The notes under the pieces were generated by a model. That model worked only from the letters and a program-made list of their open reading frames with translations. It had not been told where the DNA came from and ran no database searches. From positions 1 through 34,362 of the IMG/VR virus record IMGVR_UViG_3300017527_000166: a stretch of 34,362 nt of DNA; one strand, given 5' to 3'. Within the stretch, counting starts at the first letter, position 1, and each line of letters starts with the position of its first letter. Shown in pieces: positions 2,112 to 16,935 of this stretch. The position numbers and the translations under genes are program-made. The DNA comes from a virus.

Positions 2112-3005
2112 ATGAGCACCTCGATTGACCAAGCGTTCATCACTTCTTATGACGCGAAGGTACACGAAGTATTCCAGCGCAAAGGGTCTTATCTCAAAGA
2201 CGCTGTGCGACTAAAGGACGGTGTTGTAGGTTCAACAGCCGTCTTCCAAAAGATCGGTAAAGGTACGGCCACGACCAAAGCGCGTCATGGCACGATCACA
2301 CCGATGAACCAGGATCACACAGCCCCAAGCTGTACGTTGGCCGATTTCTATGCCGGCGACTGGGTTGATAAGCTGGACGAAGCAAAAACCAACATCAATG
2401 AGCGTGATGCGGTCGCTTCCGGCGGTGCAATGGCACTGGGTCGGAAATGTGACGATCAAATCACCACCGTTCTGGATACTACCTCTCAGGCAACTGTTAC
2501 GCTGACGGTATCTTCCATTGCGGCCATCCGTGCTACTGCCGTTGAGTTTGCAGAAGCCGCATGGGATAACGATGTGCCGAATGATGGCGAAGTATATGCC
2601 GTTGTAACGCCTCGTTTCTGGTCACAACTGATGATGGTTGAACAGTTCAGTTCTGCTGATTATGTCGGTACGAATGGTCAGGCATTTAACCAGGGTCCAC
2701 AAGCTGGTAAAGGCAAGTGGAAAGACTGGAACGGCGTTATGTGGAAGATGCAAACAGGCTTGCCTGGTGCTAACACTGCAACCGCCAAATGCTTCATCTG
2801 GCATAAATCAGCAATCGGTTACGCTATCGCCGCCTCTGCAGGCAATATCGCAGGTAATGATTCAGTTTCGGCTGATATTACATGGCATGGTGATCGTGCA
2901 TCCCATTTCGTCAACCACATGATGAGCGGACAGGCTTGTATGATCGACGATACAGGCGTTATTGAGGGGAACCTTGATGACACTGCCGCTATCGCAACAT
3001 CTTAG
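2112..3005 (+). CDS. Major capsid protein
   Basis: A 297-residue protein preceded by a good ribosome site (AGGAGAG, about 7 bases before ATG) and placed right after the scaffold, where podoviruses carry the coat gene. Features seen: N-terminal SIDQAFITSYDAKVHEVFQR, a Gly/Thr-rich segment around residues 45-70, and a C-terminal part with ADITWHGDRASHFVNHMMSG. These resemble the BPP-1-type coat protein family with an HK97-like fold; I did not detect a T7 gp10 pattern. It forms the icosahedral shell. The cement gene follows 10 bases downstream. Confidence 0.85.
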   Translation: MSTSIDQAFITSYDAKVHEVFQRKGSYLKDAVRLKDGVVGSTAVFQKIGKGTATTKARHGTITPMNQDHTAPSCTLADFYAGDWVDKLDEAKTNINERDAVASGGAMALGRKCDDQITTVLDTTSQATVTLTVSSIAAIRATAVEFAEAAWDNDVPNDGEVYAVVTPRFWSQLMMVEQFSSADYVGTNGQAFNQGPQAGKGKWKDWNGVMWKMQTGLPGANTATAKCFIWHKSAIGYAIAASAGNIAGNDSVSADITWHGDRASHFVNHMMSGQACMIDDTGVIEGNLDDTAAIATS

Positions 3006-3015
3006 GAGGTGAATC

Positions 3016-3336
3016 ATGGCTTATACAGCAGGTAATTTAACCCAAATCTCCAACGCTAATGGTTATGGTCTGTATCGGTATGATGATACGGAAGACCCAG
3101 ATGTTATTGAAACGGCGGGATATTTCAATAACCTGGATGATGACCTCAACCTACAGGTTGGTGATCGCATCGACTATACTGAGTGGGCTACAGCAGTCCG
3201 TACAGGCACGATTGCTCAGTACAAGATGTTTATCGTGACAAATGTTATTGCCAACGATGCTGCCGCATCAGCAGGCGCGGTAAATATTGCAGAAGTCGGT
3301 ATCAGTTCTGACGGTGCTATTTCTTCGGGCGCTTAA
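3016..3336 (+). CDS. Probable capsid cement/decoration protein
   Basis: A 106-residue, soluble, acidic, beta-type protein rich in Asn, Asp and Ala, without transmembrane segments. It is directly downstream of the coat gene with a strong ribosome site (TTAGGAGGTG) and followed by a strong terminator, so coat and this protein form a two-gene unit. In BPP-1-like phages the matching position is occupied by the capsid cement protein; similar N-terminal sequences of the type NANGYGLYRY are common there. Function is assigned mainly from position and size. Confidence 0.6.
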   Translation: MAYTAGNLTQISNANGYGLYRYDDTEDPDVIETAGYFNNLDDDLNLQVGDRIDYTEWATAVRTGTIAQYKMFIVTNVIANDAAASAGAVNIAEVGISSDGAISSGA

Positions 3337-3399: not shown

Positions 3400-3915
3400 A
3401 TGCGCTGTATCGTCGCCGGAAATGCCCTCGGACTTCAATTTGACATAGATCAAGTTTTCGACCGCTATGGCGAATTACCGGTCATTGCGGTGAATGGCGC
3501 ATCGAAGCACGTTAAAGCCTTTGCTCTTTATTCGCAGCACCCAGCCCGATTTATGACCCATGGCTGGATTTCAGGCCAACTCCGTAATTTTGGCGATGAT
3601 TTCACCGTTCATACGAACGGATGGAGTAATTACGAATACATCGACGAACTATGGCCGAATATTATGAATGGTGGCGGGTCAGCATGGGGCGCACGGAAAC
3701 TCGCTGTTGAGTTCGGCTATGATGAAGTCATCTTATGTGGATGCCCGATGATCCCAGGGCCATATGTCGGGAATCACAATCTCTCAGGCTTTATGCACAA
3801 GCCAGAAGTCGTTGATGAACTTTTCCAGCAGATTGAGAAAGACGTAAAGTGGCATGAGGGCTGTGTATCTGCTAGTGGCAGAACTAGGGAATTATTAGGA
3901 GATATTGATGATTAA
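3400..3915 (+). CDS. Putative glycosyltransferase-like protein (DUF115/sialyltransferase-like fold)
   Basis: A 171-residue protein with an N-terminal CIVAGNALG strand-loop (residues 3-11), AVNGASKHV (30-38), and a second nucleotide-binding-like half with GGGSAWGARKLA (91-102) and YDEVILCGCPM (107-117). The S-A/G-x-x-A-x-x-L-A then hydrophobic strand plus G-C-x arrangement is typical of MptE-like/DUF115 and CST-type sialyltransferase-like phage proteins. The C-terminal SGRTRELLGD also fits that group. Substrate is unknown. The start has no clear ribosome site. It opens the sugar block and lies one short frame away from a second glycosyltransferase. Confidence 0.5.
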   Translation: MRCIVAGNALGLQFDIDQVFDRYGELPVIAVNGASKHVKAFALYSQHPARFMTHGWISGQLRNFGDDFTVHTNGWSNYEYIDELWPNIMNGGGSAWGARKLAVEFGYDEVILCGCPMIPGPYVGNHNLSGFMHKPEVVDELFQQIEKDVKWHEGCVSASGRTRELLGDIDD

Positions 3916-3976
3916 TGGCATAAGTAAATCGCAGGTATGGTCAATTAAACACGGAAAGACTAGCTGGACAAAATAG
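3908..3976 (+). pseudogene. 22-residue frame resembling the HTH tail of a homing endonuclease
   Basis: ATG at 3908 to TAG at 3974-3976 encodes a peptide containing GISKSQVWSIKHGKTSW. That pattern (G-hydrophobic-S-x-S-x-V-x-x-I-x-x-G-K-T-W) is like the DNA-binding helix-turn-helix segment at the C-terminus of phage HNH/NUMOD endonucleases. It overlaps the previous gene by 8 bases, and its stop shares a base with the GTG of the next gene. It could be the scar of an endonuclease gene or a small coupling peptide. Evidence is one short motif, so confidence is low. Confidence 0.25.
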
Positions 3977-4497
3977 TGATTACCGTTGTCTGTGTTCTGT
4001 CTAATGCGGGGGGAAAGTACGATTACTCGCATGTAGAGCGTCTGAGGCGACAAATACGGCTTAAACAGCCCTATAAATTCGTTGTTTTAGATGATTCTCC
4101 GTATCCGTCATGGTGGGCTAAAATCTCCCTGTTCGAGCCTGGCCGCTTTACCGGACGGGTGCTGTACCTCGATCTGGATGTTGAGATTGTCGATTATCTG
4201 GATGAGATTGTGGATTATGCCCCGTTTTCTGCGGTTAGGGACTACTTAAATAAAAACCTTATAAATTCAAGCGTTATGTCGTGGAATGCTGGTGAGCAAG
4301 ACCATGTTTACACTAAATTCAAGCCAGAATTTATGAATAAATTTCCCGGCGATCAGGAATACATATATTCCTCCAGTGTTGTCTCAAAATTCCCAAAAAC
4401 ATGGTTCCCGTCTTATAAACATAACTGTAAGGACGGTGTTCCTGATGGAGCGAAGGCAATAATTTATCACGGCTACCCAAAACCATGGGATTTATAG
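3976..4497 (+). CDS. Putative GT-A glycosyltransferase (GT8-like)
   Basis: A 173-residue protein starting at GTG 3976, which overlaps the upstream TAG by one base. It has the hallmarks of a GT-A fold glycosyltransferase: N-terminal ITVVCVLSNAGGKYD, then RVLYLDLDVEIVDYLDEI (61-78) with a D-x-D metal/nucleotide-sugar motif at 66-68, GDQEYIY (125-131), and a C-terminal AIIYHGYPKPWD with the His often used in metal binding in GT8-like enzymes. It probably transfers a sugar from a nucleotide donor; acceptor unknown. An HNH endonuclease relic separates it from the biosynthesis genes. Confidence 0.7.
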   Translation: MITVVCVLSNAGGKYDYSHVERLRRQIRLKQPYKFVVLDDSPYPSWWAKISLFEPGRFTGRVLYLDLDVEIVDYLDEIVDYAPFSAVRDYLNKNLINSSVMSWNAGEQDHVYTKFKPEFMNKFPGDQEYIYSSSVVSKFPKTWFPSYKHNCKDGVPDGAKAIIYHGYPKPWDL

Positions 4498-4521
4498 TGA
4501 AAATTAGATATAATCGGGAAA

Positions 4522-4542
4522 CTGGAAGCAAGGAACTTCCAG
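4522..4542 (+). repeat. Perfect hairpin downstream of the glycosyltransferase
   Basis: CTGGAAG (4522-4528) and CTTCCAG (4536-4542) form a 7-base-pair stem with a 7-base loop, 25 bases after the stop at 4497. There is no T run behind it, so it is not a typical intrinsic terminator. It may be an RNA stability element or part of the mobile-element relic that follows. Confidence 0.5.
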
Positions 4543-4765
4543 CCCCCTAATCATAATGACTGAGGTAACAGCCAAAATGACTAAAGAAATTTTAACACAA
4601 GATTTACTCAACGAGTTATTCGTTTATAACCCAAATACAGGGGTTCTTGCTAACCCTGAGTTGAGTTGCCACCGGGATACTAAGATGTGAGTGGCAGCTC
4701 TGAAGACTTAAACGAAGTGATAAACTAAAAGCGGCTACTATATAGGTGGTCAATTCTAACGTGTT

Positions 4766-4979
4766 GTTCGACAACGAAAAGGAAAACATTATGATTAAAC
4801 AGCACGAATCAAAGTTGATAAAGTCAGTATTAGAAATAACCAAGGATAAGCCAAGGGCTGTTTATCTTACAGACGGGACAAAAATAAACATCGAATACGG
4901 TAAAAACAGAGGTGCATGGCTTAAAATTGGCCCTACGCCGGAATATAACACTGACAACGACAGCTCTTAGTTGTCGAAC
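4766..4979 (+). repeat. 10-bp inverted repeat bounding the unexplained middle of the HNH relic
   Basis: GTTCGACAAC at 4766-4775 and its exact reverse complement GTTGTCGAAC at 4970-4979 enclose a 194-base segment. The right copy ends precisely where recognisable endonuclease sequence resumes. The pair could be a stem closing a structured RNA or the ends of a small inserted element. No target-site duplication was recognised. Confidence 0.5.
4791..4970 (+). CDS. Small ORF inside the HNH relic, unknown
   Basis: An open frame of 59 residues from ATG 4791 (MIKQHESKLIK), with a weak AAGGA ribosome site upstream; the frame itself is open from 4746. The product is mixed-charge and soluble, with no motif I recognise. 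It lies wholly between the arms of a 10-bp inverted repeat in the place where the endonuclease core should be. It may be a real small gene brought in with that segment or a chance frame. Confidence 0.3.
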   Translation: MIKQHESKLIKSVLEITKDKPRAVYLTDGTKINIEYGKNRGAWLKIGPTPEYNTDNDSS

Positions 4980-5144
4980 CGTGTTAATAGAGGTATTAGC
5001 GGTAAAGCAAGGGCAGAGATTAGTTGTCTAAACAAGAACGGGTATTTTCAATTTCGCATTTGATACAACACAAGAGGCATGTTTGGCTAGAAAAAAATAT
5101 GAATCTAATTCTAACTTTCATGATAATCATGGGAAAAGATAAAT

Positions 5145-5510
5145 ATGGCTGTTCGTAACGTAGAAAAGGGATGGGGCGAGGAGATTATCTTTGCCGACCA
5201 TCCAGAATATGCAGGAAAGCTGTTGGTGTTCGATAAAGAGAATGCCCGTTTTTCTATGCACTTTCACCAGTACAAGAAAGAGACTTGGTATGTCATTAAG
5301 GGTCGTTTTCGCCTTGATTACATCGACACCAAGAATGCAGGGAAACTGACAACAGAACTAGATATGGGTGATTCTGTCGATATTCTGCCTTGCACCCCGC
5401 ATCGGCTGGTCTGTCTGACGGACGGCGGCATATTAATCGAAGTGTCTACACAGGACAGCGTTACGGACAATTTTAGGGTAATGCCTGGGGATAGTCAGTG
5501 CTCGACATAA
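5145..5510 (+). CDS. Cupin sugar-phosphate isomerase/epimerase-like protein
   Basis: A 121-residue single-domain cupin. Motif 1 is MHFHQYKKETWYVIKGRF (His-x-His, Glu seven residues after the first His, then Gly) and motif 2 is GDSVDILPCTPHRL (G-x6-P-x2-H). Together they supply the usual three His and one Glu metal site. The N-terminal EKGWGEEIIF resembles the C-terminal cupin of type II mannose-6-phosphate isomerase/GDP-mannose pyrophosphorylase. A role in isomerising or binding a sugar phosphate fits its neighbours. It is the first gene of a set running to 12899 in which nearly every gene overlaps the next, and overlaps the radical SAM gene by 13 bases. Confidence 0.75.
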   Translation: MAVRNVEKGWGEEIIFADHPEYAGKLLVFDKENARFSMHFHQYKKETWYVIKGRFRLDYIDTKNAGKLTTELDMGDSVDILPCTPHRLVCLTDGGILIEVSTQDSVTDNFRVMPGDSQCST

Positions 5511-6892
5511 TCTTAGTGAACCCTGGCGGCAGAGAGGTCATCTATCAGGGGCTTGGGGATGATTTGACAGCAGTGGAGCAACCTTTGTGGTGTAGGCTGA
5601 TTGCCGGCTATCTGATCGACCGTGGGTTCAGTGTCGCGATTATTGATGCCGATGCTGAAGACTTATCTTATGGCGAAGTCGCTGACCGCATTGCAAAGCG
5701 CAAACCTCGATATGTGGGTATGGTGGTTTCGGGTCATCAACCGTCGTCTAGCACCCAACAAATGCTACCCGCAGGAAAGACCTGTACTGCCATCACTAAA
5801 ATACCAGAACTTGAAGATACGCCAATAATAATGATGGGTGGGCATGTTTCAGCCCTGCCGGAGCAAACACTAAAAGAAGAAGACGTTGATTTCGTGGCCG
5901 TTGGAGAGGGTGCTGTAACCCTGTATGAGCTACTAAAGCTAGAACACGTTGGAATGATTGGGTCATCTCAAAAAATACCTGGCCTTGGTTATCTTGATTA
6001 TCGTGGAAGGGCGCATATTAATCCGCCTCCCCCGAATCTTGACCTAGACCAATTACACGGTGATGTATGGCACATGCTACCGATGGAGAAGTATCGGTCA
6101 CATAACTGGCAGTCTGAGGATAGACAGCCTTATGCGGCGATTTATACAAGCCTTCAATGTCCTTTTTCGTGCTCATTCTGCATGATAAACGCTATGTTTG
6201 GTGGGTCTGGTTATCGAACTCGAAAGCCAGAAGACGTAGTTTCTGAAATCAGCATGTTATACAACGAATACGGCGTTAAGACATTCAAGATCATTGACGA
6301 AATGTTCGTCCTCAAGCCCTCTCATTATCTGCCGATCTGTGAAGGATTGGCGACATTGAATCTGGACATAAACATCTGGGCATACGCACGGATAGACACG
6401 GTAAAGCATGATACGCTTGATCTCATGCGCCGTGCTGGAATTAAATGGCTAGCTCTTGGTATTGAGTCGGCTGATGAAGTTGTGAGGGACGGTGCTGAAA
6501 AGTCCATGACCCAGAATGACATTTACGACATCGTTAAGAAAATTCAGAACAGTGGCATTAAGGTCATCGGTAATTTTATTTTCGGTTTGCCTAACGACAG
6601 CATAACCACGATGCAGAAAACCTACGATCTAGCCTGTGATTTGCAGTGCGATTTCGTCAACTTTTATAGTGCTATGCCATACCCTGGGAGCAAGCTGTTT
6701 ACCGAAGCTGATCCACAAGACTTGCCTGAACGCTGGTCTGGATATTCGCAGCACTCGAAAGACTGCAAGCCTTTAGGTAATAAGTACCTGACTGCGGCTG
6801 AGATATTGGCCTTTCGGGATTCAGCCCATTGTCAGTATTTCCATGATGACCCAGAACTCAGCAAACCGCTTGAGAGGGATTTGCTTGAATAA
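5498..6892 (+). CDS. B12-binding-domain radical SAM enzyme
   Basis: A 464-residue protein. Residues 1-145 have the layout of a cobalamin-binding domain (IILVNPGG at 4-11, IIMMGGHVSALPEQ at 110-123, DFVAVGEGAVTLYELL at 131-146), as in B12-dependent radical SAM proteins. The radical SAM core carries CPFSCSFC (Cys 221, 225, 228; C-x3-C-x2-C) for the 4Fe-4S cluster, followed by an HemN/Elp3-like barrel with GNFIFGLP. Such enzymes perform methylations or radical rearrangements at unactivated carbons. Here it probably acts on the sugar or its nucleotide; the exact reaction cannot be read from sequence. GTG start overlaps the cupin gene. Confidence 0.8.
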   Translation: MLDIILVNPGGREVIYQGLGDDLTAVEQPLWCRLIAGYLIDRGFSVAIIDADAEDLSYGEVADRIAKRKPRYVGMVVSGHQPSSSTQQMLPAGKTCTAITKIPELEDTPIIMMGGHVSALPEQTLKEEDVDFVAVGEGAVTLYELLKLEHVGMIGSSQKIPGLGYLDYRGRAHINPPPPNLDLDQLHGDVWHMLPMEKYRSHNWQSEDRQPYAAIYTSLQCPFSCSFCMINAMFGGSGYRTRKPEDVVSEISMLYNEYGVKTFKIIDEMFVLKPSHYLPICEGLATLNLDINIWAYARIDTVKHDTLDLMRRAGIKWLALGIESADEVVRDGAEKSMTQNDIYDIVKKIQNSGIKVIGNFIFGLPNDSITTMQKTYDLACDLQCDFVNFYSAMPYPGSKLFTEADPQDLPERWSGYSQHSKDCKPLGNKYLTAAEILAFRDSAHCQYFHDDPELSKPLERDLLE

Positions 6893-7481
6893 AGAACAAC
6901 TAATCGCCTTTGAGGAATCCATTGCGGAGGAATTTCTGCGCGGTGAGATTCGCTATCCCATCCATCTGGATAACGATAATGAAGACGAACTCATTAAGGT
7001 CTTTGAGAAGTTCAAACTTGGCGATAGCGTTTACGGAAGCTGGAGGATGCACTACAAAGCCTTACTTGCCGGCGTACCTGAGAGCGAACTGAGGAAAGCC
7101 ATTCATCGTGGCGAATCAATGGCACTGAACTTCCCTGAGTACCATGTGTACGGGTCGGCTATTGTCGGCGGGATTGTGCCGATAGCGGTCGGCGCTGCGA
7201 TGGCAATTAAAACTCTCGGCGGGTCAAGTCATGTCTGGTGCTTTATTGGAGACATGACTCGCTTAACAGGGCTTGCTGAAGAATGTATACGTTATTCCTC
7301 ATACCATCAGTTGCCGATTACCTTTGTCACTGAGGACAACGGGGTGAGCGTTTTAACAGATACAAGAGATTGCCATGGCATGAACCAATTACTTGATTTG
7401 GATATGTACCCGAATGAGATAAGTTTCAGGTACAAGTCGAAATATCCGCACAGCGGAGTCGGAAAGCGGGTGGAGTTCTGA
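6885..7481 (+). CDS. ThDP-dependent enzyme, alpha (PP-domain) subunit, E1/transketolase-like
   Basis: About 198 residues from TTG 6885, preceded by GAGAGGG; an in-frame ATG at 6843 would overlap the upstream gene by 50 bases and has no ribosome site. The protein shows SWRMHYKALLAGVP and GSAIVGGIVPIAVGAAMA, then the thiamine-diphosphate/Mg motif as CFIGDM followed 26 residues later by DNGVS (classic form G-D-G-x-N). This is the PP domain of the pyruvate dehydrogenase E1-alpha/transketolase superfamily, but about half the length of usual E1-alpha. With the following gene it should make one ThDP enzyme able to transfer a two-carbon or acyl unit. Confidence 0.8.
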   Translation: MNKEQLIAFEESIAEEFLRGEIRYPIHLDNDNEDELIKVFEKFKLGDSVYGSWRMHYKALLAGVPESELRKAIHRGESMALNFPEYHVYGSAIVGGIVPIAVGAAMAIKTLGGSSHVWCFIGDMTRLTGLAEECIRYSSYHQLPITFVTEDNGVSVLTDTRDCHGMNQLLDLDMYPNEISFRYKSKYPHSGVGKRVEF

Positions 7482-7975
7482 TGTACAAGGATGAACTAAG
7501 TAAAGCCATGTCCATGTTGGCCGAAGATGACCGAACTATTTTTATCGGTCAAGGCGTGAAAGATGGCGGCACGTTTCAAAGCGGGACGCTTACCCATCTG
7601 CCAGTCCATCGGCGCATTGAATTCCCTGTCGCTGAGAACTTTCAGATGGGGGCATCTATTGGCATGGCATTGAACGGTATGATTCCTGTCACCTGTTTTC
7701 CAAGATGGAATTTCATGATCGCCGCTGCCGACCAGTTGGTGAATCATTTATCCGTAATGCGCCCGCATGTCATTGTGCGCGTCGGTGTCGGTTCTAAAGG
7801 AGTTTTAGACCCAGGGCTTCAGCACGTAGGCAACTGGTCTGAGTCATTTCGACTAATGATGCCTGACACCCCAATTATTGAACTATTCGATGAACAGGAG
7901 ATTGTTGATGAATACCGCGCAGCCCTTGAAAGAAACGGCCCCACCATCCTTGTCGAGTTTGCAGACCGCTATTAA
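7481..7975 (+). CDS. ThDP-dependent enzyme, beta (Pyr-domain) subunit
   Basis: A 164-residue partner of the upstream gene, with start and stop sharing one base. RRIEFPVAENFQMGASIGMA carries the Glu (residue 52) that activates the thiamine ring in E1-beta/transketolase Pyr domains, and FMIAAADQLVNHL matches the following helix. The C-terminal transketolase domain of normal E1-beta (about 325 residues) is absent, so the pair is a minimal split ThDP enzyme. Such pairs occur in bacterial surface-sugar loci. I infer carbon-carbon bond formation at a keto sugar; donor is unknown. Confidence 0.8.
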   Translation: MYKDELSKAMSMLAEDDRTIFIGQGVKDGGTFQSGTLTHLPVHRRIEFPVAENFQMGASIGMALNGMIPVTCFPRWNFMIAAADQLVNHLSVMRPHVIVRVGVGSKGVLDPGLQHVGNWSESFRLMMPDTPIIELFDEQEIVDEYRAALERNGPTILVEFADRY

Positions 7976-9086
7976 ACTGCATGAACCGTCGTTTGGTGAA
8001 GACGAAATACAGGCGGTTGTCGATGTTTTAAGATCGACCAATGTTACATCTGGCGGAAAGGTCAGGGAGATGGAAGCACTGTTCGGTGATGAAGCAATTA
8101 TGTGCAACAGTGGTTCTTCCGCCAATCTGCTTGCTATCGCTACCCTGTGTAATCCCTTAACGCCCGACCACCTGAATCGTGGCGATGAAGTCATTGTCTC
8201 TGCCCTTTCGTGGTCTACGACTGTTTGGCCTTTAGTCCAGCACGGACTTGTTCCGGTGATTGTCGATATCGACCCTGAAACCCTGAATCTTGACTTGGAT
8301 CAAGTTTCTGAGGCAATTAGCCCAAAGACAAGGGCAGTGATGCCGGTACATGTTTATGGTAATCCCTGTCATCCGTCAGCATTGCTTCAACTCTGTGAAG
8401 ACAACGGGCTTGCGCTAATCCAGGATTGCTGTGAATCCTTAGGCAATGGTGGTGAAGGCTTAATGTCCACCTACAGTTTTTATTTCTCGCACCATATCAC
8501 GACCCTTGAAGGCGGCATGGTTGTTTGCAAAGACCCTGAACAAGCCGACATTATGCGCTGCATACGGGCGCACGGATGGACGCGGGACATGAAAAACCCC
8601 ATGACCCACCCTTCTATCGACCCAAGGTTCCTGTTTGTTACAGACGGTTATAACTTGAGGGCATCGGAAATCAATGCCGCCATGGGGCTTGTTCAGATGG
8701 GGAAGGCTGACGGGTTCATCAAGCAACGGAAACGAATCGCTGCAATGTTAAAGGTCGTCTTTGAACCGTACAGTGATTGTGTTCGGATGCAAAAGGACGA
8801 AGGTTCAACATGGTTCGGCTTTCCTTTGGTTGGAGTTGGTGTGGACGCAAGAGACTTCAGGGACAACCTTGAGTCGAATGGCATTGAAACTCGCTCACTG
8901 ATCTGTGGGAATGTCGCACGACAGCCTGCGATGAAGCTCTATGAACATCGTATAAAGGGTTCACTCAAACATGCCGATCATGTCATGGAGCACGGATTCT
9001 CTCTGCCCTGTCATCAGAGCATGAAAGAGGCAGATGTAGAACATATACAGACAGTTGTTGATGCTTACTTTATGGATCATTCATGA
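7908..9086 (+). CDS. DegT/DnrJ/EryC1-family PLP/PMP enzyme with His replacing Lys (ColD-like 3-dehydratase)
   Basis: About 392 residues from ATG 7908, which has AGGAG seven bases upstream; an earlier ATG at 7878 lacks such a site. Fold-type I sugar aminotransferase signatures are clear: CNSGSSANLLA, HVYGNPCHP, LIQDCCESLG. In SFYFSHHITTLEGG the residue that normally is the Schiff-base Lys is His (H195 from this start), as in GDP-4-keto-6-deoxymannose 3-dehydratase ColD and RfbH/E1 enzymes. This predicts removal of the C3 hydroxyl rather than transamination. The 68-base overlap with the ThDP gene and the following 4,6-dehydratase support one pathway. Confidence 0.85.
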   Translation: MNTAQPLKETAPPSLSSLQTAIKLHEPSFGEDEIQAVVDVLRSTNVTSGGKVREMEALFGDEAIMCNSGSSANLLAIATLCNPLTPDHLNRGDEVIVSALSWSTTVWPLVQHGLVPVIVDIDPETLNLDLDQVSEAISPKTRAVMPVHVYGNPCHPSALLQLCEDNGLALIQDCCESLGNGGEGLMSTYSFYFSHHITTLEGGMVVCKDPEQADIMRCIRAHGWTRDMKNPMTHPSIDPRFLFVTDGYNLRASEINAAMGLVQMGKADGFIKQRKRIAAMLKVVFEPYSDCVRMQKDEGSTWFGFPLVGVGVDARDFRDNLESNGIETRSLICGNVARQPAMKLYEHRIKGSLKHADHVMEHGFSLPCHQSMKEADVEHIQTVVDAYFMDHS

Positions 9087-10072
9087 ATGTATTGATATCT
9101 GGCATAACCGGATTTGTGGGGAGCAACCTTGTTGACTACCTGCTAAAGAATACTGACTGGACTATCTATGGATTAATGAGATGGGATGACCGTCTTGATA
9201 ATCTCCAGCACTTGATGGAAGAAATCAATAACGGTGGTCGGATCAAACTGATACAGGGTGATCTGGAAGACCTGAACTCGCTTCACCTGGCCGTTGAAGA
9301 ATCTCAGCCTGATTACGTGTTTCACCTCGCGGCACAGTCTTATGTTCAAGCCAGCTTTCGATATGCTGCCAAGACGTTACAGACAAATGTGATTGGCACC
9401 GAGAACCTGATGGATGCGATTAGACGACGTGCCCCTGATGCTTGGGTACATAATTGCTCATCTAGTGAAGTTTACGGCAAAGTTGATGCCGACTATGGCG
9501 CGATAGATGAAGACTGTCCTTTAGCCCCTGCCTCTCCTTACTCAATCTCAAAGATCGGTCAGGACTTTATCGGTCGCTATTACCATGAGGCTTACGGGCT
9601 TAAAGTCTTAACGACAAGAATGTTCACGCATACTGGCCCCCGCAGAGGTGATGTATTTTTCGAGTCGTCCTTTGCCAAGCAGATTGCCATGATTGAAGCC
9701 GGATTGATCGAGCCGCTTATCAAAGTTGGTAATCTCTATTCGATTCGCACCATCGCTGATGTAAGGGATGCGGTTAGGGCTTATCACTTGCTGCTGACTC
9801 ACGACCCTATTGCTGGCGAAGTCTATAATATCGGTGGTACACATACCTGCATGGTAGGGGATGTGCTTGATTATCTGAATAAGTCGAAGATTCCTGTTGT
9901 TGAAGATCGCTCACGCATGAGGCCGCTGGATGCCAACTTTCAGATTCCTGACTACAGTAAGTTCAATGCACATACGGGATGGGAGCCTGAGTTTACTTTT
10001 GAGCAGACCATGGACGACCTTTTGGATTATTGGAGAGAGGAAGTCAAAACTCGGAGGTTCTTGCAGCGATGA
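9083..10072 (+). CDS. NDP-sugar 4,6-dehydratase, GDP-mannose dehydratase-like (SDR)
   Basis: A 329-residue extended SDR. NAD(P) is bound at GITGFVG (7-13); HLAAQSYVQASF (81-92) matches GDP-mannose 4,6-dehydratase (GMD); CSSSEVYG (125-132) carries the Ser and Glu used in dehydration; YSISK (153-157) is the catalytic Tyr-x3-Lys; TGPRRGDVFF follows. It should convert a GDP-hexose or GDP-heptose to the 4-keto-6-deoxy form, the substrate needed by the ColD-like enzyme upstream. Overlaps both neighbours by 4 bases (ATGA). The exact nucleotide and sugar are not certain. Confidence 0.8.
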   Translation: MNVLISGITGFVGSNLVDYLLKNTDWTIYGLMRWDDRLDNLQHLMEEINNGGRIKLIQGDLEDLNSLHLAVEESQPDYVFHLAAQSYVQASFRYAAKTLQTNVIGTENLMDAIRRRAPDAWVHNCSSSEVYGKVDADYGAIDEDCPLAPASPYSISKIGQDFIGRYYHEAYGLKVLTTRMFTHTGPRRGDVFFESSFAKQIAMIEAGLIEPLIKVGNLYSIRTIADVRDAVRAYHLLLTHDPIAGEVYNIGGTHTCMVGDVLDYLNKSKIPVVEDRSRMRPLDANFQIPDYSKFNAHTGWEPEFTFEQTMDDLLDYWREEVKTRRFLQR

Positions 10073-10476
10073 TTATTGCAGTTTCAATGGGTGCCGACCC
10101 TTTACACGTAGGTCATCTGGACTTGATCGACGCAGCGGTCAACTATGGGCGCGTGGTGGTTATCTTGAATTCTGATGATTGGTTGATGAGGAAGAAAAAC
10201 TATATCTTCATGCCTTTCGACGAGAGGAAACGAATTCTTATGTCTATTCGGAATGTCCATCGTGTCATTGGTGTTGATGATTCTGATGATACGGTTTGCA
10301 AGGCACTGAAACTGGTAAGACCCGACTATTTCGCCAATGGTGGCGACAGGACAGAACCAAACGAGAAAGAAGATATGATTTGTGATGCGATTGGTATTAA
10401 ACAGTTGTTTAACGTAGGTGGTGATAAGGTTCAGTCATCATCTCAACTTGTGGAGAATGCAAATAATGGATGTTAA
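10069..10476 (+). CDS. Sugar nucleotidyltransferase, HldE/RfaE2-like
   Basis: A 135-residue cytidylyltransferase-fold enzyme starting at ATG 10069 inside the ATGA overlap, with GGAGG upstream. The active-site H-x-G-H is HVGH (13-16) within GADPLHVGHLDLI; a Gly-Gly-Asp-Arg (GGDR) and a C-terminal DKVQSSSQL (the I/V-S-S-T-like motif) complete the family pattern. HldE C-domain/HldC enzymes join a nucleotide to heptose-1-phosphate; other members use CTP with different substrates. With the kinase that follows it forms a likely activation pair. Confidence 0.75.
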   Translation: MIIAVSMGADPLHVGHLDLIDAAVNYGRVVVILNSDDWLMRKKNYIFMPFDERKRILMSIRNVHRVIGVDDSDDTVCKALKLVRPDYFANGGDRTEPNEKEDMICDAIGIKQLFNVGGDKVQSSSQLVENANNGC

Positions 10477-10496
10477 GTCTTTTTGGGGGAATAATC

Positions 10497-11453
10497 ATGT
10501 TCGTCATTAAAACCCCCCTGAGAGTCAGCTTTGCTGGTGGTGGTACTGATTATAATGAATATTATCGTAGATTTGGTGGTCAAGTCATAACCACGACCAT
10601 CGACAAATACTGCTGCGTAATCGCCCGAAAGATGCCGCCTTTCCTTGGGTCTAAGTATCGTATCTTTTGGTCAAAGGCAGAATCGCCTGATCGAATTGAA
10701 GATATCAAGCACCCTGGAGTCAGGGGTTGTCTTGAGTACATGAAGATGGACGAGGGAATTGAGGTCAACCATGCGGGCGACTTGCCGGCAAGGTCTGGTC
10801 TTGGTTCGTCTTCCTCTTTTACTGTCGGGATGCTACACGCTATTCATAAGATGCGGGGCGAAGAAGTCAGTCAGTCTCAACTTGCCGTGGAAGCGATAGA
10901 GGTCGAACAGGATGTTTTGAAAGAGATGGTCGGCATTCAAGATCAAATTCAATGCGCTCATGGTGGCGTGAATCACCTGAGATTTAATAAAGACGGTAGT
11001 TACAGTATTTCCCCCGTTATTTTTGACTATGCCCGTGTCGAGTCTCACCTGATGTTATGTTTTTCCGGCCTGCAGCGATTTGCCTCCGAGGTTGCTAAAG
11101 ATCAGGTGAGTAACTTCAAGCACAAGGAAATGGAATTACGAGAGATATCAGACATGGTGCCGAGTGTTATCGGGGCGATGAAGCATGATGACATGGAGTT
11201 TCTTGGCAAGCTCATGGATGAATCGTGGGAGCTTAAGAAAAGCCTTTCTGACAAGATAACCAGCCCCGAACTAGACGACCTGTACAAGACTGCCATGAAG
11301 GCGGGCGCTTATGGCGGAAAGCTGTTGGGTGCCGGTGGTGGCGGGTTTTTTCTGTTTGTCGCTCCACCTGAGTTGCACCAGAGTATTGCTGAAAAACTGG
11401 GATTGATCTGTGTTCCGGTAAAGTTTGAGTTTAAGGGAAGTCACGTTCTGTGA
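10497..11453 (+). CDS. GHMP sugar kinase, HddA (heptose-7-phosphate kinase)-like
   Basis: A 318-residue kinase; ATG 10497 has GGGGGA six bases upstream, better than the frame opening at 10470. All three GHMP motifs are present: TPLRVSFAGGGTDY (6-19), DLPARSGLGSSSSF (95-108, ATP loop) and KLLGAGGGGFF near the C-terminus. The first motif is the HddA/sugar-1-kinase form. Known relatives phosphorylate C1 of D-glycero-D-manno-heptose 7-phosphate or related sugars. No heptose isomerase (GmhA) or phosphatase (GmhB) gene is visible, so host enzymes may supply the substrate. Its stop overlaps the next GTG start. Confidence 0.8.
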   Translation: MFVIKTPLRVSFAGGGTDYNEYYRRFGGQVITTTIDKYCCVIARKMPPFLGSKYRIFWSKAESPDRIEDIKHPGVRGCLEYMKMDEGIEVNHAGDLPARSGLGSSSSFTVGMLHAIHKMRGEEVSQSQLAVEAIEVEQDVLKEMVGIQDQIQCAHGGVNHLRFNKDGSYSISPVIFDYARVESHLMLCFSGLQRFASEVAKDQVSNFKHKEMELREISDMVPSVIGAMKHDDMEFLGKLMDESWELKKSLSDKITSPELDDLYKTAMKAGAYGGKLLGAGGGGFFLFVAPPELHQSIAEKLGLICVPVKFEFKGSHVL

Positions 11454-12322
11454 AAGCATTGTTCGTCACAACTGAGTCCGCAGACTGTGAAAATCACGTA
11501 CAAGCGTGGAACAGTGCCTTTCCGAAAGCAGTTGTTCACAAGCATAATCCAACCGGTATTCGCAATGACTGGCAGATAATAGAGGTCGCTAAAAAACTTC
11601 GCCCAGATGTCATTTTCTACATAGGTGCGGTAATGGGTTCTGGAATACCAAGGCCGGGTACATTATTTGACTTAAATCAAATAGCGCCGCTGATTAACTT
11701 TTGCTCCGATGCGGCAGATCAACCATGGGCAGATGCCATGGCGCTTTATAAGAAGCACGGGTGTTTTACGCTCCAGGTTGCTATCGACGGGGCAGATACG
11801 GCAGATTTGGCGACATTGACCCCTGTAGACCCCGCGCCATTCGGGAAGCGGTCTAAAAGCATCCTGTTCGGCTTCTCTGGCTCCGTGGGGCGCTGGAACA
11901 CACGTTCTGAGGTCGTTAATGCGCTTGAGTGGCTAGGCGGCTTAGAAGTCCGCAGGAGAGGTGGAGCCTATCAAGACCACGTAGATTTTATGTGCCGCAC
12001 GAAGTTCTTGTTCAATACGGCATGGACAGGCACAGGACGACGGTTTCATGTCAAGGGTCGTGTTGTTGAGGCGGGGTATGCGAATTGTGCATTGATTGAG
12101 CATGTCGATTCCCCCATTGGCAAATGGTTTCCCGATGGCGCATGGTTTCAATGGAGCACTCCGAGAGATGCGGTAGAAATCGTGAAAAACATTAGCGATG
12201 CGGAAATCGCACGTTCAGCTAAGATATTGAACGAGACAGTGAGAGAAAAGTACACGGCGAAGAAGATTTATCAGGAGATACTGGATGGCGTGGATATTAC
12301 CGAGTCGGTCAAGACCGCATAA
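11450..12322 (+). CDS. GT-B glycosyltransferase, CgeB/family 1-like
   Basis: A 290-residue protein starting at GTG 11450 (GTGA overlap with the kinase stop). The N-terminal half is Rossmann-like (KALFVTTES; RPDVIFYIGAVMG). The C-terminal half has ILFGFSGSVGRWNTR (138-152) and FHVKGRVVEAGYANCALIEH (199-218), the segment of CgeB/glyco_trans_1_2-type GT-B enzymes that binds the donor nucleotide sugar. It probably attaches the pathway product to an acceptor. Overlaps the next gene by 38 bases. Confidence 0.7.
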   Translation: MKALFVTTESADCENHVQAWNSAFPKAVVHKHNPTGIRNDWQIIEVAKKLRPDVIFYIGAVMGSGIPRPGTLFDLNQIAPLINFCSDAADQPWADAMALYKKHGCFTLQVAIDGADTADLATLTPVDPAPFGKRSKSILFGFSGSVGRWNTRSEVVNALEWLGGLEVRRRGGAYQDHVDFMCRTKFLFNTAWTGTGRRFHVKGRVVEAGYANCALIEHVDSPIGKWFPDGAWFQWSTPRDAVEIVKNISDAEIARSAKILNETVREKYTAKKIYQEILDGVDITESVKTA

Positions 12323-12899
12323 TATTAAAAGACTGGTCGATGCTTACCTGAAGACGGGGGCATCTACACCTGTTCTGCTTCGTTTAGATGACGACGACCC
12401 TGCTTTGGATGGATACAAGGAGATTTCCTATCCTGATGGGTGGGTGGTCTGGAAAGCGGAGAGAAAAACGCTCTCTGGATACTACAATGAGGTCTATGAC
12501 CGAACAAATTACGATTGGTATGGATTTATTGCTGATGATGTTATCCCTGAAACCGATGAATGGGACAGAAAATTGATCGAAATTGCAGATTCGGACGGAA
12601 TGGCAGTGCCGGCTGGTGCTCATGGCGACATTAACAGCGAAAACGGCAGTCCACATTTTGTATTAGGCGGCGATTTGGTTAGAGAAACCGGATTTCTGTG
12701 CTTACCTGGCCTGGATAGAATCTATATCGACACTGTTTGGGCGCATATTGCGAGGAAGAAAGGTGTTTTTAGGCATGTTCCTGATGTAGTATTGAAACAC
12801 TTACACTTCTCCAACGGCGCACCAATGGACAAAACTTATCTAAAATCTAATAAAGATAAGGATTTCGCGCTCTTTCAATCTTTCAAAACGGAGAATTAA
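12285..12899 (+). CDS. GT-A (family 2-like) glycosyltransferase
   Basis: A 204-residue protein with N-terminal WILPSRSRPHNIKRLVDAY, an acidic LRLDDDDP (33-39) and FIADDVIPET (81-90). The latter matches the D-D/D-x-D metal-nucleotide site of GT-A enzymes. VVLKHLHF near the C-terminus supplies a His usual in this group. No membrane segment, so it is cytoplasmic. It closes the sugar operon; the next gene begins at once with a tail-module protein, so the block appears co-transcribed with late genes. Confidence 0.7.
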   Translation: MAWILPSRSRPHNIKRLVDAYLKTGASTPVLLRLDDDDPALDGYKEISYPDGWVVWKAERKTLSGYYNEVYDRTNYDWYGFIADDVIPETDEWDRKLIEIADSDGMAVPAGAHGDINSENGSPHFVLGGDLVRETGFLCLPGLDRIYIDTVWAHIARKKGVFRHVPDVVLKHLHFSNGAPMDKTYLKSNKDKDFALFQSFKTEN

Positions 12900-12900
12900 A

Positions 12901-13377
12901 TTGAAGATCAATCCCGAAGTATTCACCACCCCCGACCGCCCGATTATTCGCATTAGAGAGTTTCGTGGGCATGTCGATCTCGATGACCTTATCAGTAAAC
13001 TGATTCATGCACAGGGATGGGGTTCTGGCACTTATTTCTCTGTCCAGTTTATGAACCATGAGCGCAGCAAGATTTTCGCATCTGGTGAATTCATGGTGAC
13101 AATGGCCGATGAAGCACTTGTAACCTCAAATCCTGACTCCCGCAACCCGAATACCAAGATGGTTTCCCATCTGAAGTCTGAAATGGTTGGTGAATGGTTT
13201 GTAACCTCGTTTATCGACGAGCGTGATCCAGCCAGAAAGCAGGATGTAAAAAAGCTGGATGCCGAAGTTAAATGGAATCCTGGCGTTAAAAGGCATCAGG
13301 TGATTGTTGATAACGAAGTCGTATTTGAGTCTGAGGATAAGTCGGATATTGATGACTATCTGAAGAAAGCCGCGTAA
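12901..13377 (+). CDS. Hypothetical protein upstream of tail tube A
   Basis: A 158-residue protein with TTG start at 12901, one base after the previous stop, supported by GGAG seven bases upstream. It is soluble and mixed alpha/beta with no motif I recognise; the last 40 residues contain VKWNPGVKRHQVIVDNEVVF. Its stop overlaps the tail tube A start by one base, so it is likely a small tail or head-completion protein, by position only. Confidence 0.65.
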   Translation: MKINPEVFTTPDRPIIRIREFRGHVDLDDLISKLIHAQGWGSGTYFSVQFMNHERSKIFASGEFMVTMADEALVTSNPDSRNPNTKMVSHLKSEMVGEWFVTSFIDERDPARKQDVKKLDAEVKWNPGVKRHQVIVDNEVVFESEDKSDIDDYLKKAA

Positions 13378-13994
13378 TGCCTAGCAAGACGGAAATCGCA
13401 AATGGGGCACTCCGATTAGTCGGGGCGGGTCGTGTTACCAATGTCGATACAGACGGCACACCAAAGGCGCAGACGGTTCTTGACCTGTACGAAGATGTCA
13501 GGAAAGAACTCCTGCGCTCCCATAACTGGAATTTTGCCACCAAACGGGAAAAACTCGCTCAATCTTCAACGACTCCTGAGTTTGAGTTTGATTACGCTTA
13601 CCCGATACCGTCAGACTGGATTCGTACAAAATCGGTTACTGACAACGATGCTGGGTATTCAACCATTCTCTATCGGATGGAATTTGTCGGGTCGCAGCGG
13701 TGTATTGTCTGCTCTGCTGATCAGGTCTATCTGAGGTACATTTTCAATGCAGAAGACCCCAACAAGTATTCCGCCGACTTTGTTCGTGCTTTTGAGTTAT
13801 TGCTAGGTCGTGACCTTGCCTTGCCTATCACGGCATCAAGAACATTACGGGCGGATCTTGATGCTGAATACAAGCGTGTTATCAGTCAGGCCAAATCAAC
13901 AGACAGTCAGGGTCAATTCCCTGAACTTCGTCCTAGAGGGTCATGGGCAAACTCTCGTCGCGGTTTCCGTAACGACGACTTTCTGAACGATTAA
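13377..13994 (+). CDS. Tail tubular protein A (T7 gp11-like)
   Basis: A 205-residue protein with the family's characteristic opening (SKTEIANGALRLVGAGRV), then LDLYEDVRKELLRSHNWNFA and YPIPSDWIRTKSV. This is the gatekeeper/adaptor that forms the dodecameric ring under the portal in T7-like and BPP-1-like phages; family length is about 190-210. One-base overlaps with genes on both sides indicate translational coupling with tail tube B. Confidence 0.85.
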   Translation: MPSKTEIANGALRLVGAGRVTNVDTDGTPKAQTVLDLYEDVRKELLRSHNWNFATKREKLAQSSTTPEFEFDYAYPIPSDWIRTKSVTDNDAGYSTILYRMEFVGSQRCIVCSADQVYLRYIFNAEDPNKYSADFVRAFELLLGRDLALPITASRTLRADLDAEYKRVISQAKSTDSQGQFPELRPRGSWANSRRGFRNDDFLND

Positions 13995-16492
13995 TGAAAA
14001 TAAGCGACATAATTCCATCGTTGAACGCAGGTGAACTTAGCCCGCGCCTCCATAATCGTCTTGATTTTGCTAAATATAAAAGCGGATTAGCGACCTGTGA
14101 AAACTTCAAGATTCTGCCTGAAGGCGGAATTATGCGTCGTCCCGGCACACGGTTTGTTGCCGAGGCTAAAGAAAGCACAATTAAAGGCCGGCTGAAGAAG
14201 TTTCAATTCTCTGTCACTCAAGCCTATATATTAGAGCTTGGGGAGCATGCGATTAGATTCTATCGGCATCAAGGTCAGATTACTGTTGCGGATACCGATG
14301 CTGCGGTCACGAATGGTAACTTTGATTCAGGAATTACGGATTGGGACGATCAATCGACCGGTGGCGCAGGAAATCAGATTTCACATGACGCGACCAATAA
14401 CCGCCTGACACTTGAGACAAGCGGTGTCGCAGCAGACGATATCGGATGGGCAGAACAGGACATTACGACTACCGATACCAACCAGGAGCATGTTATTCGG
14501 TTTCAGGTGGTTGGCGACCCTGGGGACAAGATTGAGTTTCAGGTCGGCACTTCGTCCAGTGGTGCCGAGACATTGGCCGCTGTTGAAAGACAGGTTGGCT
14601 ATCATTGCATTGCTTTCACGCCGACGACCAGCCCGTTTTATATCCAGTTCAAGAATAAAGGGATAAACGCAGATAAAGACGTTCAGATAGATGATGTCGT
14701 TATTTTGGACGATACCGCAGTTGAGGTTATAACGCCGTGGCCGGAAGCTGCCCTGTTTGATGTTGAAGGACCGCAGAGTGCCGATGAACTCTATATGTTC
14801 CATGATGACTATCCGACACACAAATTACAGCGTTACGGCCATACCTCATGGTCTATCACTCAAGTAGCCTGGCAGGACGGGCCTTATCTTGAGGAAAATA
14901 GTTCTACGACCACGTTACTTCCTTCTGCGGCAACGGGTCTTGGCATAAACCTTACGCTATCGTCTATTGCGGGGGTGAATAGTGGTCTTGGCTGGCAATC
15001 AACCGATATCGGCAGGCTGGTAAGATATAAAAAGTCTACTGCATGGGGGTGGGCTATTATCACCTCTATCACATCAACTACTGTTGCTGTTGCTGATGTT
15101 AAGGCGGATTTTGAGGCCGCACCTGACGCTCAAACTACTTTCAGGTTGGGCGCATGGTCTGGGACAACAGGTTATCCACAGGCATCGTCATTTTTTGAGC
15201 AACGGCTGTATGTAGGCGCAACAACCCATCAGCCGCAGACGTTCGGAGCCTCGCAGACTGCTGACTTTGAGAATTTCACGCCTGATAATCGAGATGGCGA
15301 CAATGACGGGACAATAGAAGACACCGACGCTTTTAATTACACGTTGTCTGCTGATGATGTGAACGCGATTCACTGGATGTCTGCTGGCGCGGACACGTTG
15401 GTTATCGGAACTTCTGGTGGAGAGTGGGTGCCTACATCTTCGGGCATTGTCATAACGCCAAACGATATTACGGTGCGCCGCCAAACGACTCATGGTTCAT
15501 CGCAACGACAACCGGTTCGTATCGGTCATGTTGTGCTTTTTATTCAACGCGCCAAGAGGAAGATCAGGGAATTCGGGTTTTCCTTTGAGGTTGATGGTTA
15601 TGTCGCCCCTGACCTCATTCGACTTGCCCAAAACATCAGTTTCGGTGGAATAACCGAGATGGCATATCAGGAAGAACCTGATTCGACCGTCCATGCGATT
15701 CGTAAAGACGGGCAAATGCCGACAATGACTTACCGCAGAGAGGAAGATGTTGTTGGTTGGAGTCGATATATCTTTGGCGGTTCTTTTGGCTCTGGTAATG
15801 CGGTTGCGGAGTCTGTCAGGACGATCCCAGGCGCAGACGGGTCTGGCCAGGTACAGGACTCAGAGGATCGTGATGAGGTCTGGGTGATAGTGAAAAGAAC
15901 GATAGATGGCGTGACCAAACGATATATTGAGGTCATGGAAGGAGATCATGGCGACAACTTCGATCAGGAAGACGCTTATTATTCTGATTCGCTTATTACC
16001 TATGACGGTTCAGCCACAACATCCATTACAGGGCTATCTCACCTTGAAGGCGAGACAGTAAAGATTCTTGCTGATGGTGCGATTCATGCAGAGAAAACCG
16101 TTTCTGCCGGCGCAATTACATTGGACAGTGAAGCCTCCGTTGTTCAGATTGGCCTTGGCTATTCCCACAAGATGAATTCACTCAAGGTCACTTCTGGCAA
16201 CCCTGCGGGAACTGCACTAGGCAGGATTAAAAGAATCTTTAACATTGTATTTGCCTTGCTGAATACGCAGACCATCAAGTACGGCAATGATTCTACTGAT
16301 CTTGTAACCGAGGACTTCAGGAATTCCAGTGACCCTATGGATGCCGCCTCACCCCTGTTTACCGGTGAGAAAGATGTCGATTTCCATGGCGATTGGGGTT
16401 CAGACAGTCGTATTTATATCGAATCAGATGATCCTGTTCCGTTTACCCTGTTGGCTATCGCACCGAGCGAAGTCGTCAATCCAAGACCATGA
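13994..16492 (+). CDS. Tail tubular protein B / tail nozzle (T7 gp12-like)
   Basis: An 832-residue protein. The N-terminus (IPSLNAGELSPRLHNRLDF, KYKSGLATCENFKILPEGG, MRRPGTRFV) is the family signature of the podoviral tail nozzle, which continues the tail tube and anchors fibres. A middle segment (about residues 95-225) looks like an inserted beta-sandwich or carbohydrate-binding-like domain (VTNGNFDSGITDWDDQ). The later part is beta-rich. Length is close to the T7 homologue (about 790). Confidence 0.85.
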   Translation: MKISDIIPSLNAGELSPRLHNRLDFAKYKSGLATCENFKILPEGGIMRRPGTRFVAEAKESTIKGRLKKFQFSVTQAYILELGEHAIRFYRHQGQITVADTDAAVTNGNFDSGITDWDDQSTGGAGNQISHDATNNRLTLETSGVAADDIGWAEQDITTTDTNQEHVIRFQVVGDPGDKIEFQVGTSSSGAETLAAVERQVGYHCIAFTPTTSPFYIQFKNKGINADKDVQIDDVVILDDTAVEVITPWPEAALFDVEGPQSADELYMFHDDYPTHKLQRYGHTSWSITQVAWQDGPYLEENSSTTTLLPSAATGLGINLTLSSIAGVNSGLGWQSTDIGRLVRYKKSTAWGWAIITSITSTTVAVADVKADFEAAPDAQTTFRLGAWSGTTGYPQASSFFEQRLYVGATTHQPQTFGASQTADFENFTPDNRDGDNDGTIEDTDAFNYTLSADDVNAIHWMSAGADTLVIGTSGGEWVPTSSGIVITPNDITVRRQTTHGSSQRQPVRIGHVVLFIQRAKRKIREFGFSFEVDGYVAPDLIRLAQNISFGGITEMAYQEEPDSTVHAIRKDGQMPTMTYRREEDVVGWSRYIFGGSFGSGNAVAESVRTIPGADGSGQVQDSEDRDEVWVIVKRTIDGVTKRYIEVMEGDHGDNFDQEDAYYSDSLITYDGSATTSITGLSHLEGETVKILADGAIHAEKTVSAGAITLDSEASVVQIGLGYSHKMNSLKVTSGNPAGTALGRIKRIFNIVFALLNTQTIKYGNDSTDLVTEDFRNSSDPMDAASPLFTGEKDVDFHGDWGSDSRIYIESDDPVPFTLLAIAPSEVVNPRP

Positions 16493-16935
16493 TTATCCGC
16501 AAGGCAGATATCGAGACAGATGCCCTTGCTATCATGGAGGGCGCAAAGGATTTTGCCAGACGTACCGAGTTTCCCCATCTCTTGCCGGACAAAGACGAGG
16601 GCTGGTATGCGGTTTTAAGCCGAATCACATCAAGTCCACTTGTTGAAATTATTGTGGCAGAGCATAACAATACAGTTGTTGGGGGTATTGGTCTTCTTTA
16701 CAATGGATGGTCATGGAACCCGAACATACAGGTAGGGGAAGAATTGTTTTGGTGGGTTGATAAAACGGCACCGTTCAAAACTGCTATTCTTTTGATTGAC
16801 CATGCAATGAAGGAAATTGACGAGAAGGGCGCGATACCGATATTCAAATCATTGGCATCAAGTCCTGCGGGTGTTGAGAAGGTATATATGAAACACGGAT
16901 TGAAGTTCATAGAAAATGCGTACATGAGGATATAA
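16489..16935 (+). CDS. GNAT-like N-acyltransferase, T7 gp13 position
   Basis: A 148-residue GNAT-fold protein: MIIRKADIETDALAIMEGAK, then VGGIGLLYNGWSW and a C-terminal GVEKVYMKHGLKFIENAYMR, matching acetyl-CoA-dependent acyltransferase folds. The acetyl-CoA loop (Q/R-x-x-G-x-G/A) is not clearly preserved, so activity is uncertain. It overlaps tail tube B by 4 bases. T7-like phages carry a similar GNAT-like small protein (gp13) needed for virion assembly at this place. Confidence 0.65.
   Translation: MIIRKADIETDALAIMEGAKDFARRTEFPHLLPDKDEGWYAVLSRITSSPLVEIIVAEHNNTVVGGIGLLYNGWSWNPNIQVGEELFWWVDKTAPFKTAILLIDHAMKEIDEKGAIPIFKSLASSPAGVEKVYMKHGLKFIENAYMRI

Follow-up and report, generated by a model that had tools for sequence, protein, structure and literature searches.

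Why does a small tailed phage spend over a quarter of the sequence known for it on genes that seem fit to make a rare, branched deoxy-sugar, and to what would that sugar be attached? The question is raised by the IMG/VR virus record IMGVR_UViG_3300017527_000166, here analysed over its entire 34,362 bases (the window), in which a glycan cassette is inserted between the head and tail genes of a podovirus. Whether phage sugar-pathway clusters have a function or serve as packaging filler is an open question (PMC3037559), which the phage family described here makes directly testable. The reading that we favour, with a probability of roughly 0.5, is that the window carries a functional, phage-owned glycan cassette in an exchangeable head–tail slot, the sugar of which is probably attached to a virion protein.

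A conserved cassette in an exchangeable slot

The block at positions 3400–12899, all on the + strand, opens with two glycosyltransferase-like genes, which a 647-bp gap separates from eight pathway genes (the pathway proper, 5145–11453) and two further transferases, and is placed between the major capsid protein (MCP) gene and the adjoining small gene g3016 upstream and the tail tube gene downstream (Table 1). Family, PHROG and structure matches recovered, in the same places, all genes named in a preliminary description made from the letters alone, together with their overlaps and the four glycosyltransferase-like genes, and the placement between capsid (PF19821) and tail (phrog_394 and phrog_376) genes was upheld.

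In tblastn searches of the window proteins against IMG/VR loci, at least 15 related podovirus contigs, several of them partial, proved to carry the cassette set at this same slot (set-carrying contigs L002–L011, L021, L057, L092 and L105, and later L229, L293, L329 and L197). Since the same set occupies the same slot in many independent contigs, its presence by chance is ruled out. Two gene orders of the set occur among the related contigs, and some members (for example L006, L197, L005 and L008) are without the nucleotidyltransferase or the kinase. One of these, L197 (WGED01000516), is labelled as a Cyclobacteriaceae metagenome-assembled genome; this bacterium-binned contig is a relative of the window phage, with the genes from the B12-binding radical SAM enzyme (B12rSAM) to the tail protein in order.

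The cassette is under purifying selection. Active-site residues were invariant across 8–13 sequences, and in L092/L293, the only close pair of this phage family available for estimating the ratio of nonsynonymous to synonymous substitution rates (dN/dS), values were 0.052 for B12rSAM, 0.050 for MCP, and 0.127 and 0.067 for two transferases. Module genes in other phage pairs mostly gave dN/dS values of 0.05–0.2, with one DegT pair, maybe not orthologous, at 0.43. These data bear on the idea that host lipopolysaccharide (LPS) genes were acquired by accident and are carried as non-functional filler, as in the “stuffer DNA” proposal for cyanophages, a choice that the literature has left undecided (PMC3037559). 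That explanation is already contradicted by the strong purifying selection, the intact frames and the invariance of active-site residues across at least 12 divergent phages, and also by the GC content of the cassette, which matches that of the structural genes (0.464 vs 0.468); we consider it extremely improbable. The claim that the phage bears a nucleotide-sugar pathway with its own transferases is supported, the set being selected and held in one slot across the family, where its late placement is likewise conserved, and a functional sugar pathway is very probable.

All 13 module phages placed in the MCP tree fell in one clade (100/99). Nested within this clade were L097 and L098 with an empty slot (pairing 100/96, inside a 99/96 group), L101 with an FkbM methyltransferase in place of the module, and L096, whose slot contains PseB-like, cytidylyltransferase, DegT and methyltransferase genes. 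Outside the clade, the slot contained PseB-like, HisF-type, NeuB and cytidylyltransferase genes in L126, a GT29-like gene in L111, and a methyltransferase plus a GT2-like gene in L135. Judging from gene content, the L096 and L126 slots hold pathways of the nonulosonic-acid type. In the cultured pelagiphage Hodr, the MCP gene, a g3016 homolog (81 residues, E 9e-6) and the tail tube gene were found with nothing between. The occurrence of empty, swapped and filled slots indicates that the slot is a site of gain, loss and exchange of whole sugar pathways. These small-genome phages keep the cassette in one position within the virion operon, with purifying selection acting on it, and trade it for other sugar pathways or lose it.

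Predicted enzymes and proposed sugar

The DegT-family protein carries His-His in place of the pyridoxal phosphate-binding lysine (FYFSHHITTLEGG), with H205/H206 invariant in 12 phages and aligned with ColD. Its profile scores were 379 bits for ColD (2gms), 308 for a CDP-type 3-dehydrase and 233 for the best aminotransferase listed, and comparison with ColD by sequence gave 221 bits; among solved proteins, a 3-dehydratase thus comes nearer than any aminotransferase listed. The ColD best match and the invariant His for Lys argue for a 3-deoxy sugar. The dehydratase, previously described as resembling GDP-mannose 4,6-dehydratase (GMD), is present, but this assignment can be refined, as the protein is nearer to GDP-heptose than to GDP-mannose dehydratases, scoring 320 bits against 7us5 (GDP-D-glycero-D-manno-heptose 4,6-dehydratase) and 170 against the next solved protein; its short-chain dehydrogenase/reductase (SDR) motif (S128, E129, Y153, K157) is invariant in 11 phages. 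The best NCBIfam match was HddA for the kinase (NF049969, 133 bits against a curated equivalog cut-off of 600) and RfaE domain II for the nucleotidyltransferase (TIGR02199, below cut-off). By their best relatives, all three enzymes speak for a heptose over a hexose. The cassette shows no recognisable GmhA- or GmhB-like gene, so that the pathway would draw on heptose phosphate from the host.

TPPa, which is E1-alpha-like, and TPPb, which is E1-beta-like, are encoded side by side, as in two-subunit aKADH2 enzymes. The GD...N motif for binding thiamine diphosphate (ThDP) in TPPa (G136, D137, N166) and residue E52 in the pyrimidine domain of TPPb are invariant in 12 phages, and we take E52 to be the catalytic Glu from knowledge of the family. 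The pair most resembles pyruvate dehydrogenase E1 alpha/beta, with E1-type scores above transketolase scores. In antibiotic pathways, keto-sugars receive C2 branches from two-subunit enzymes of the aKADH2/E1 type (PMC12247030; PMC4753412), and this precedent, together with the E1-like character of the pair, suggests a C2 branch. The minimal viral pair may perform this chemistry, which for E1-type pairs has so far been reported from antibiotic biosynthesis.

Both the B12-binding domain and the CxxxCxxC radical SAM core are present in B12rSAM (alignment A4), which is a presumed C-methyltransferase by sequence; its best solved relatives are PDB 9ccb and AprD4 (6fd2). In L010 (3–2093) and L293 (7389–9656), an in-frame, intein-like insertion with an HNH/NUMOD-like region splits the gene at one shared position, immediately ahead of the second Cys of CxxxCxxC, and L003 (12602–17173) contains a second B12-radical SAM gene (23%) together with three tandem paralogs of the transferase GTc. 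The cupin was found in the window only among the family members read and was rejected as a core enzyme. The weakest identification of the cassette is the transferase GTa (3400–3915), for which the family search gave no convincing match; its structural model (predicted local distance difference test score, pLDDT, 88.6) matched CstII (2x61/1ro7) with E 7e-4, prob 1.00 and TMq 0.65.

From these assignments we infer a pathway in which host D-glycero-D-manno-heptose phosphate would be phosphorylated at C1 by the GHMP/HddA-like kinase and activated by the nucleotidyltransferase. The dehydratase would then convert it by 4,6-dehydration to a 6-deoxy-4-keto sugar and the DegT enzyme, of pyridoxamine phosphate (PMP) type, by 3-dehydration to a 3,6-dideoxy-4-keto sugar. 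The two-subunit ThDP enzyme would branch the keto carbon with a C2 (acetyl) unit and B12rSAM would add a methyl group or make another change, after which the four transferases would attach the finished sugar, probably to the virion. The predicted product is a nucleoside diphosphate-3,6-dideoxy-heptose in which the keto carbon C4 bears a C2 branch; the heptose origin and the C2 branch are each fairly likely, and the deoxy, possibly branched sugar foreseen in the preliminary description is supported, the branch being probable. A product made via a methylated heptose, of the erwiniose/caryophyllose kind, was considered and dropped, since erwiniose is the product of ErwE, a ThDP enzyme of the decarboxylase type that uses a long donor (PMC12247030).

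The same enzymes could also yield a dideoxy-sugar that is unbranched or derived from a hexose, in which case the ThDP pair would act as a transketolase-like enzyme or another carboligase. Characterised enzymes are only distant relatives of the pair, and in L295 (4238–9406) split transketolase-like genes replace the pair beside GMD, DegT and B12rSAM genes, which would fit such a product; the higher E1-type scores and the heptose signatures in three separate enzymes speak against it, and we regard this outcome as rather unlikely.

Candidate acceptors

A virion protein is somewhat favoured as the acceptor of the sugar, because the cassette lies in the virion operon, encodes no membrane-spanning protein and is replaced at the same place by other sugar pathways; the candidates are g3016 and MCP. 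Relatives with a different or no sugar pathway at this spot suggest a decoration of the phage's own particles by sugars that can be exchanged within the lineage. The only membrane-like segment noted in the cassette is one hydrophobic stretch in TPPa, and no clear membrane protein was found there.

The last point also bears on the proposal that the cassette alters the host surface during infection, for instance by capping LPS, and so blocks phage re-adsorption. Phage LPS genes have been proposed to change the cell surface (PMC5332604), and bacterial relatives of B12rSAM, the kinase, DegT and the ThDP enzyme sit together in loci of the surface-glycan type. However, none of the cassette genes was recognised as coding for a flippase, a polymerase, a membrane-anchored transferase or an enzyme that initiates on a lipid carrier, and the membrane flippase and membrane glycosyltransferase of gtr-type serotype conversion were not found either; the position within the virion operon is fixed in the whole clade, and non-homologous pathways are swapped at exactly this slot. 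A role at the host surface therefore appears unlikely.

Attachment to phage DNA bases as a guard against restriction has one point in its favour, a queuine tRNA-ribosyltransferase/DpdA-like gene (33742–34362; phrog_887, E 2e-46) that is cut by the record end and hints at 7-deazaguanine in the phage DNA. No base hydroxylase or hydroxymethylase was recognised in the window, the cassette lies in the late region distant from the recombination genes, and relatives swap it for pathways to nonulosonic acids, a sugar class not known to occur on DNA. DNA as the acceptor is therefore very unlikely.

Turning to the virion candidates, g3016 is presumably a virion protein from its position. Its C-terminus resembles VTNVIxNDAAASAGxVNxAE...SS in 12 of the 13 module phages and in none of the four non-module relatives of the clade (L097, L098, L101 and L096), giving Fisher values of 0.002, or 0.007 with L097/L098 counted once, neither of which corrects for shared ancestry. 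A longer g3016 form (184–234 residues) occurs in several phages with other slot contents. A fold search of the PDB with g3016 gave no significant match, and its fold matches were uncharacterised phage proteins only. The protein is a candidate glycan acceptor whose tail would change with the glycan. More tentatively, a lineage of small podoviruses may coat its virions with a phage-made, branched, heptose-derived sugar, the cassettes being swapped whole for other sugar pathways, such as those for nonulosonic acids, and g3016 changing its C-terminal tail to serve as the matching acceptor.

Several observations weigh against the favoured interpretation of a virion-directed branched heptose. There is a nucleotide clash, as the dehydratase and ColD relatives use GDP while RfaE2/TagD-type enzymes use ATP or CTP. 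The kinase, nucleotidyltransferase and B12rSAM all score far under curated cut-offs, and B12rSAM also resembles AprD4, a diol-dehydratase. TPPb (164 aa, Transket_pyr only) is without the C-terminal domain of known E1-beta proteins, so that the pair is likened to aKADH2 in function and not classed as a member. Finally, L003 carries the module without the shared g3016 tail, and since g3016 touches the slot, exchange by linkage could also explain the covariation of its tail.

Relatives and closest known systems

B12rSAM has relatives at 47–58% in Rhodospirillales, Alteromonadales and other groups; genes for an HddA-like kinase, a DegT and a ThDP enzyme, full-length or fused, often lie nearby, so that by sequence the cassette parts are of the bacterial surface-glycan kind. 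The ordered phage set was looked for as a host LPS locus and was not found in bacterial surface-glycan loci, though several enzymes are common to both. The heptose-type loci of Rhodospirillales, Alteromonas and Shewanella (L147, L170, L172 and L178) share with the phage B12rSAM (53–58%), an HddA-like kinase (41–48%), DegT (27–40%) and a ThDP enzyme, but are chromosomal and differ in a full-length or fused ThDP enzyme, an HddC-type nucleotidyltransferase (by eye), extra SDRs and another gene order. The literature searched offered nothing useful on B12-radical SAM enzymes of heptose/O-antigen loci. Podovirus B12rSAMs fell in three lineages among the bacterial ones, those of the window, L002 and L092 grouping with marine gammaproteobacteria (98/89), and a single origin of all cassette genes in podoviruses was not upheld for this gene.

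The rarity attributed to such a pathway was not supported, as related modules are common in uncultured phages (124 relatives of B12rSAM and 437 of the mini-ThDP proteins in IMG/VR), including contigs in which the structural genes of this podovirus family were not found (e.g. L248, L240 and L331/L374). L331 (7901–13623) and L374 (1185–6916), which look T4-like by eye, carry a set of B12rSAM, TPPa, TPPb, kinase, DegT and SDR genes beside gp47/gp46-like genes. Viral contigs widely carry the short ThDP pair; among the Pseudomonadota genomes searched it is rare, with 1 case in 299. In this case a single stretch of the bacterial chromosome (L375; G249:C1:628000-647900) encodes an HddA-like kinase, the mini ThDP pair, a DegT and a B12rSAM, and a strictly viral mini TPPb was rejected on this account. 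A fused form of the pair forms PHROG 34187, with an example in cyanophage S-SM2.

Phage sugar clusters and virion glycosylation are already known; the exchangeable slot, the small-genome setting and the minimal ThDP pair are new. Cyanophages S-SM2, P-SSM2 and S-SSM7 likewise bear nucleotide-sugar genes (PMC3037559), and S-SM2 encodes a fused 402-aa mini E1-alpha/beta (37% to TPPa, 35% to TPPb) among genes annotated as carbohydrate kinase, nucleotidyltransferase and phosphoheptose isomerase; these clusters differ in their large T4-like genomes, their position near tRNAs instead of a head–tail slot, and their gene set. For mycobacteriophages Che8 and Rita, glycans have been reported on capsids, specifically on the major capsid protein (Freeman 2023, as cited in PMC11256854), with phage-encoded glycosyltransferases as here, whereas no such sugar pathway is described in the text consulted and a virion glycan is a prediction for the window phage; in the related Maravista the transferases lie near the 3' end, unlike in the window phage (same text). 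The aKADH2 pairs AviB1/AviB2, Pau11/Pau12 and KbDH are E1-alpha/beta-type ThDP pairs of deoxy-sugar pathways, as proposed for the phage, but are known from secondary metabolites, and the phage TPPb lacks the C-terminal domain of E1-beta proteins. In the yersiniose A pathway a 4-keto-3,6-dideoxy sugar is branched by a ThDP enzyme, as proposed here, but this enzyme, YerE, is a flavoprotein of the decarboxylase type that consists of a single chain and takes a CDP-hexose as substrate, while the phage enzyme is E1-type and its substrate probably a heptose.

Gene layout and neighbouring features

The record is incomplete as a genome, since a gene runs off each end, the portal C-terminus being open at base 2 and the DpdA-like gene at the opposite end. 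By MCP and tail protein, the nearest cultured relatives are mostly pelagiphages (38–45%). From the cupin gene through the gene at 12901, overlaps occur at nine of ten junctions. Start codons of several cassette genes are uncertain, and DegT may begin at ATG 7908 and the nucleotidyltransferase at ATG 10069.

Table 1. Genes of the cassette and its borders in the window.
Feature	Position	Strand	Evidence
Major capsid protein (MCP), upstream slot border	2112–3005	+	PF19821 E 1e-57; phrog_3437
g3016, small protein adjoining MCP	3016–3336	+	Alignment A9; model pLDDT 78.6
GTa, GT42 (CstII sialyltransferase)-like fold	3400–3915	+	2x61/1ro7 structure match; kept in family
GTb, glycosyltransferase	3976–4497	+	phrog_1962 E 1.2e-18
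Cupin, possible sugar isomerase/epimerase	5145–5510	+	Cupin_2 E 7e-8; WbuC family below cut-off
B12rSAM, presumed C-methyltransferase	5498–6892	+	Radical_SAM 2e-15; B12-binding 1e-14
TPPa, E1-alpha-like ThDP subunit	6843–7481	+	E1_dh 1e-6; PDH E1 alpha 1e-12
TPPb, E1-beta-like ThDP subunit	7481–7975	+	Transket_pyr 8e-12; PDH E1 beta 5e-11
DegT-family PMP-type 3-dehydratase (ColD/RfbH-like)	7878–9086	+	DegT 9e-75; ColD 2gms
NDP-heptose 4,6-dehydratase-like	9083–10072	+	GDP_Man_Dehyd 2e-73; 7us5 320 bits
Sugar-1-phosphate nucleotidyltransferase, RfaE2/TagD type	10030–10476	+	CTP_transf_like 5e-8; TIGR02199 best NCBIfam, below cut-off
Anomeric sugar kinase, HddA-like GHMP	10470–11453	+	GHMP N 2.5e-13, C 8e-12; PDB 4usm, 3k85, 4n3o
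GTc, glycosyltransferase	11450–12322	+	PF13524 26.0 bits vs cut-off 25; kept in family
GTd, GT2-like glycosyltransferase	12285–12899	+	phrog_14945 E 8e-30
g12901, small late protein, downstream slot border, present in empty-slot relatives too	12901–13377	+	
Tail tubular protein	13377–13994	+	phrog_394 E 5e-48
Tail protein	13994–16492		phrog_376

The 647-bp gap, the sole large one, separates the GTb and cupin genes and contains a short open reading frame (4556–4690) resembling part of an HNH endonuclease (phrog_99, E 0.002), perhaps the remnant of a homing gene. Downstream of the cassette, an acetyltransferase-like gene (16489–16935; phrog_1249) lies between the tail and internal virion genes, and an acetyltransferase-like gene likewise adjoins the same tail gene in pelagiphages.

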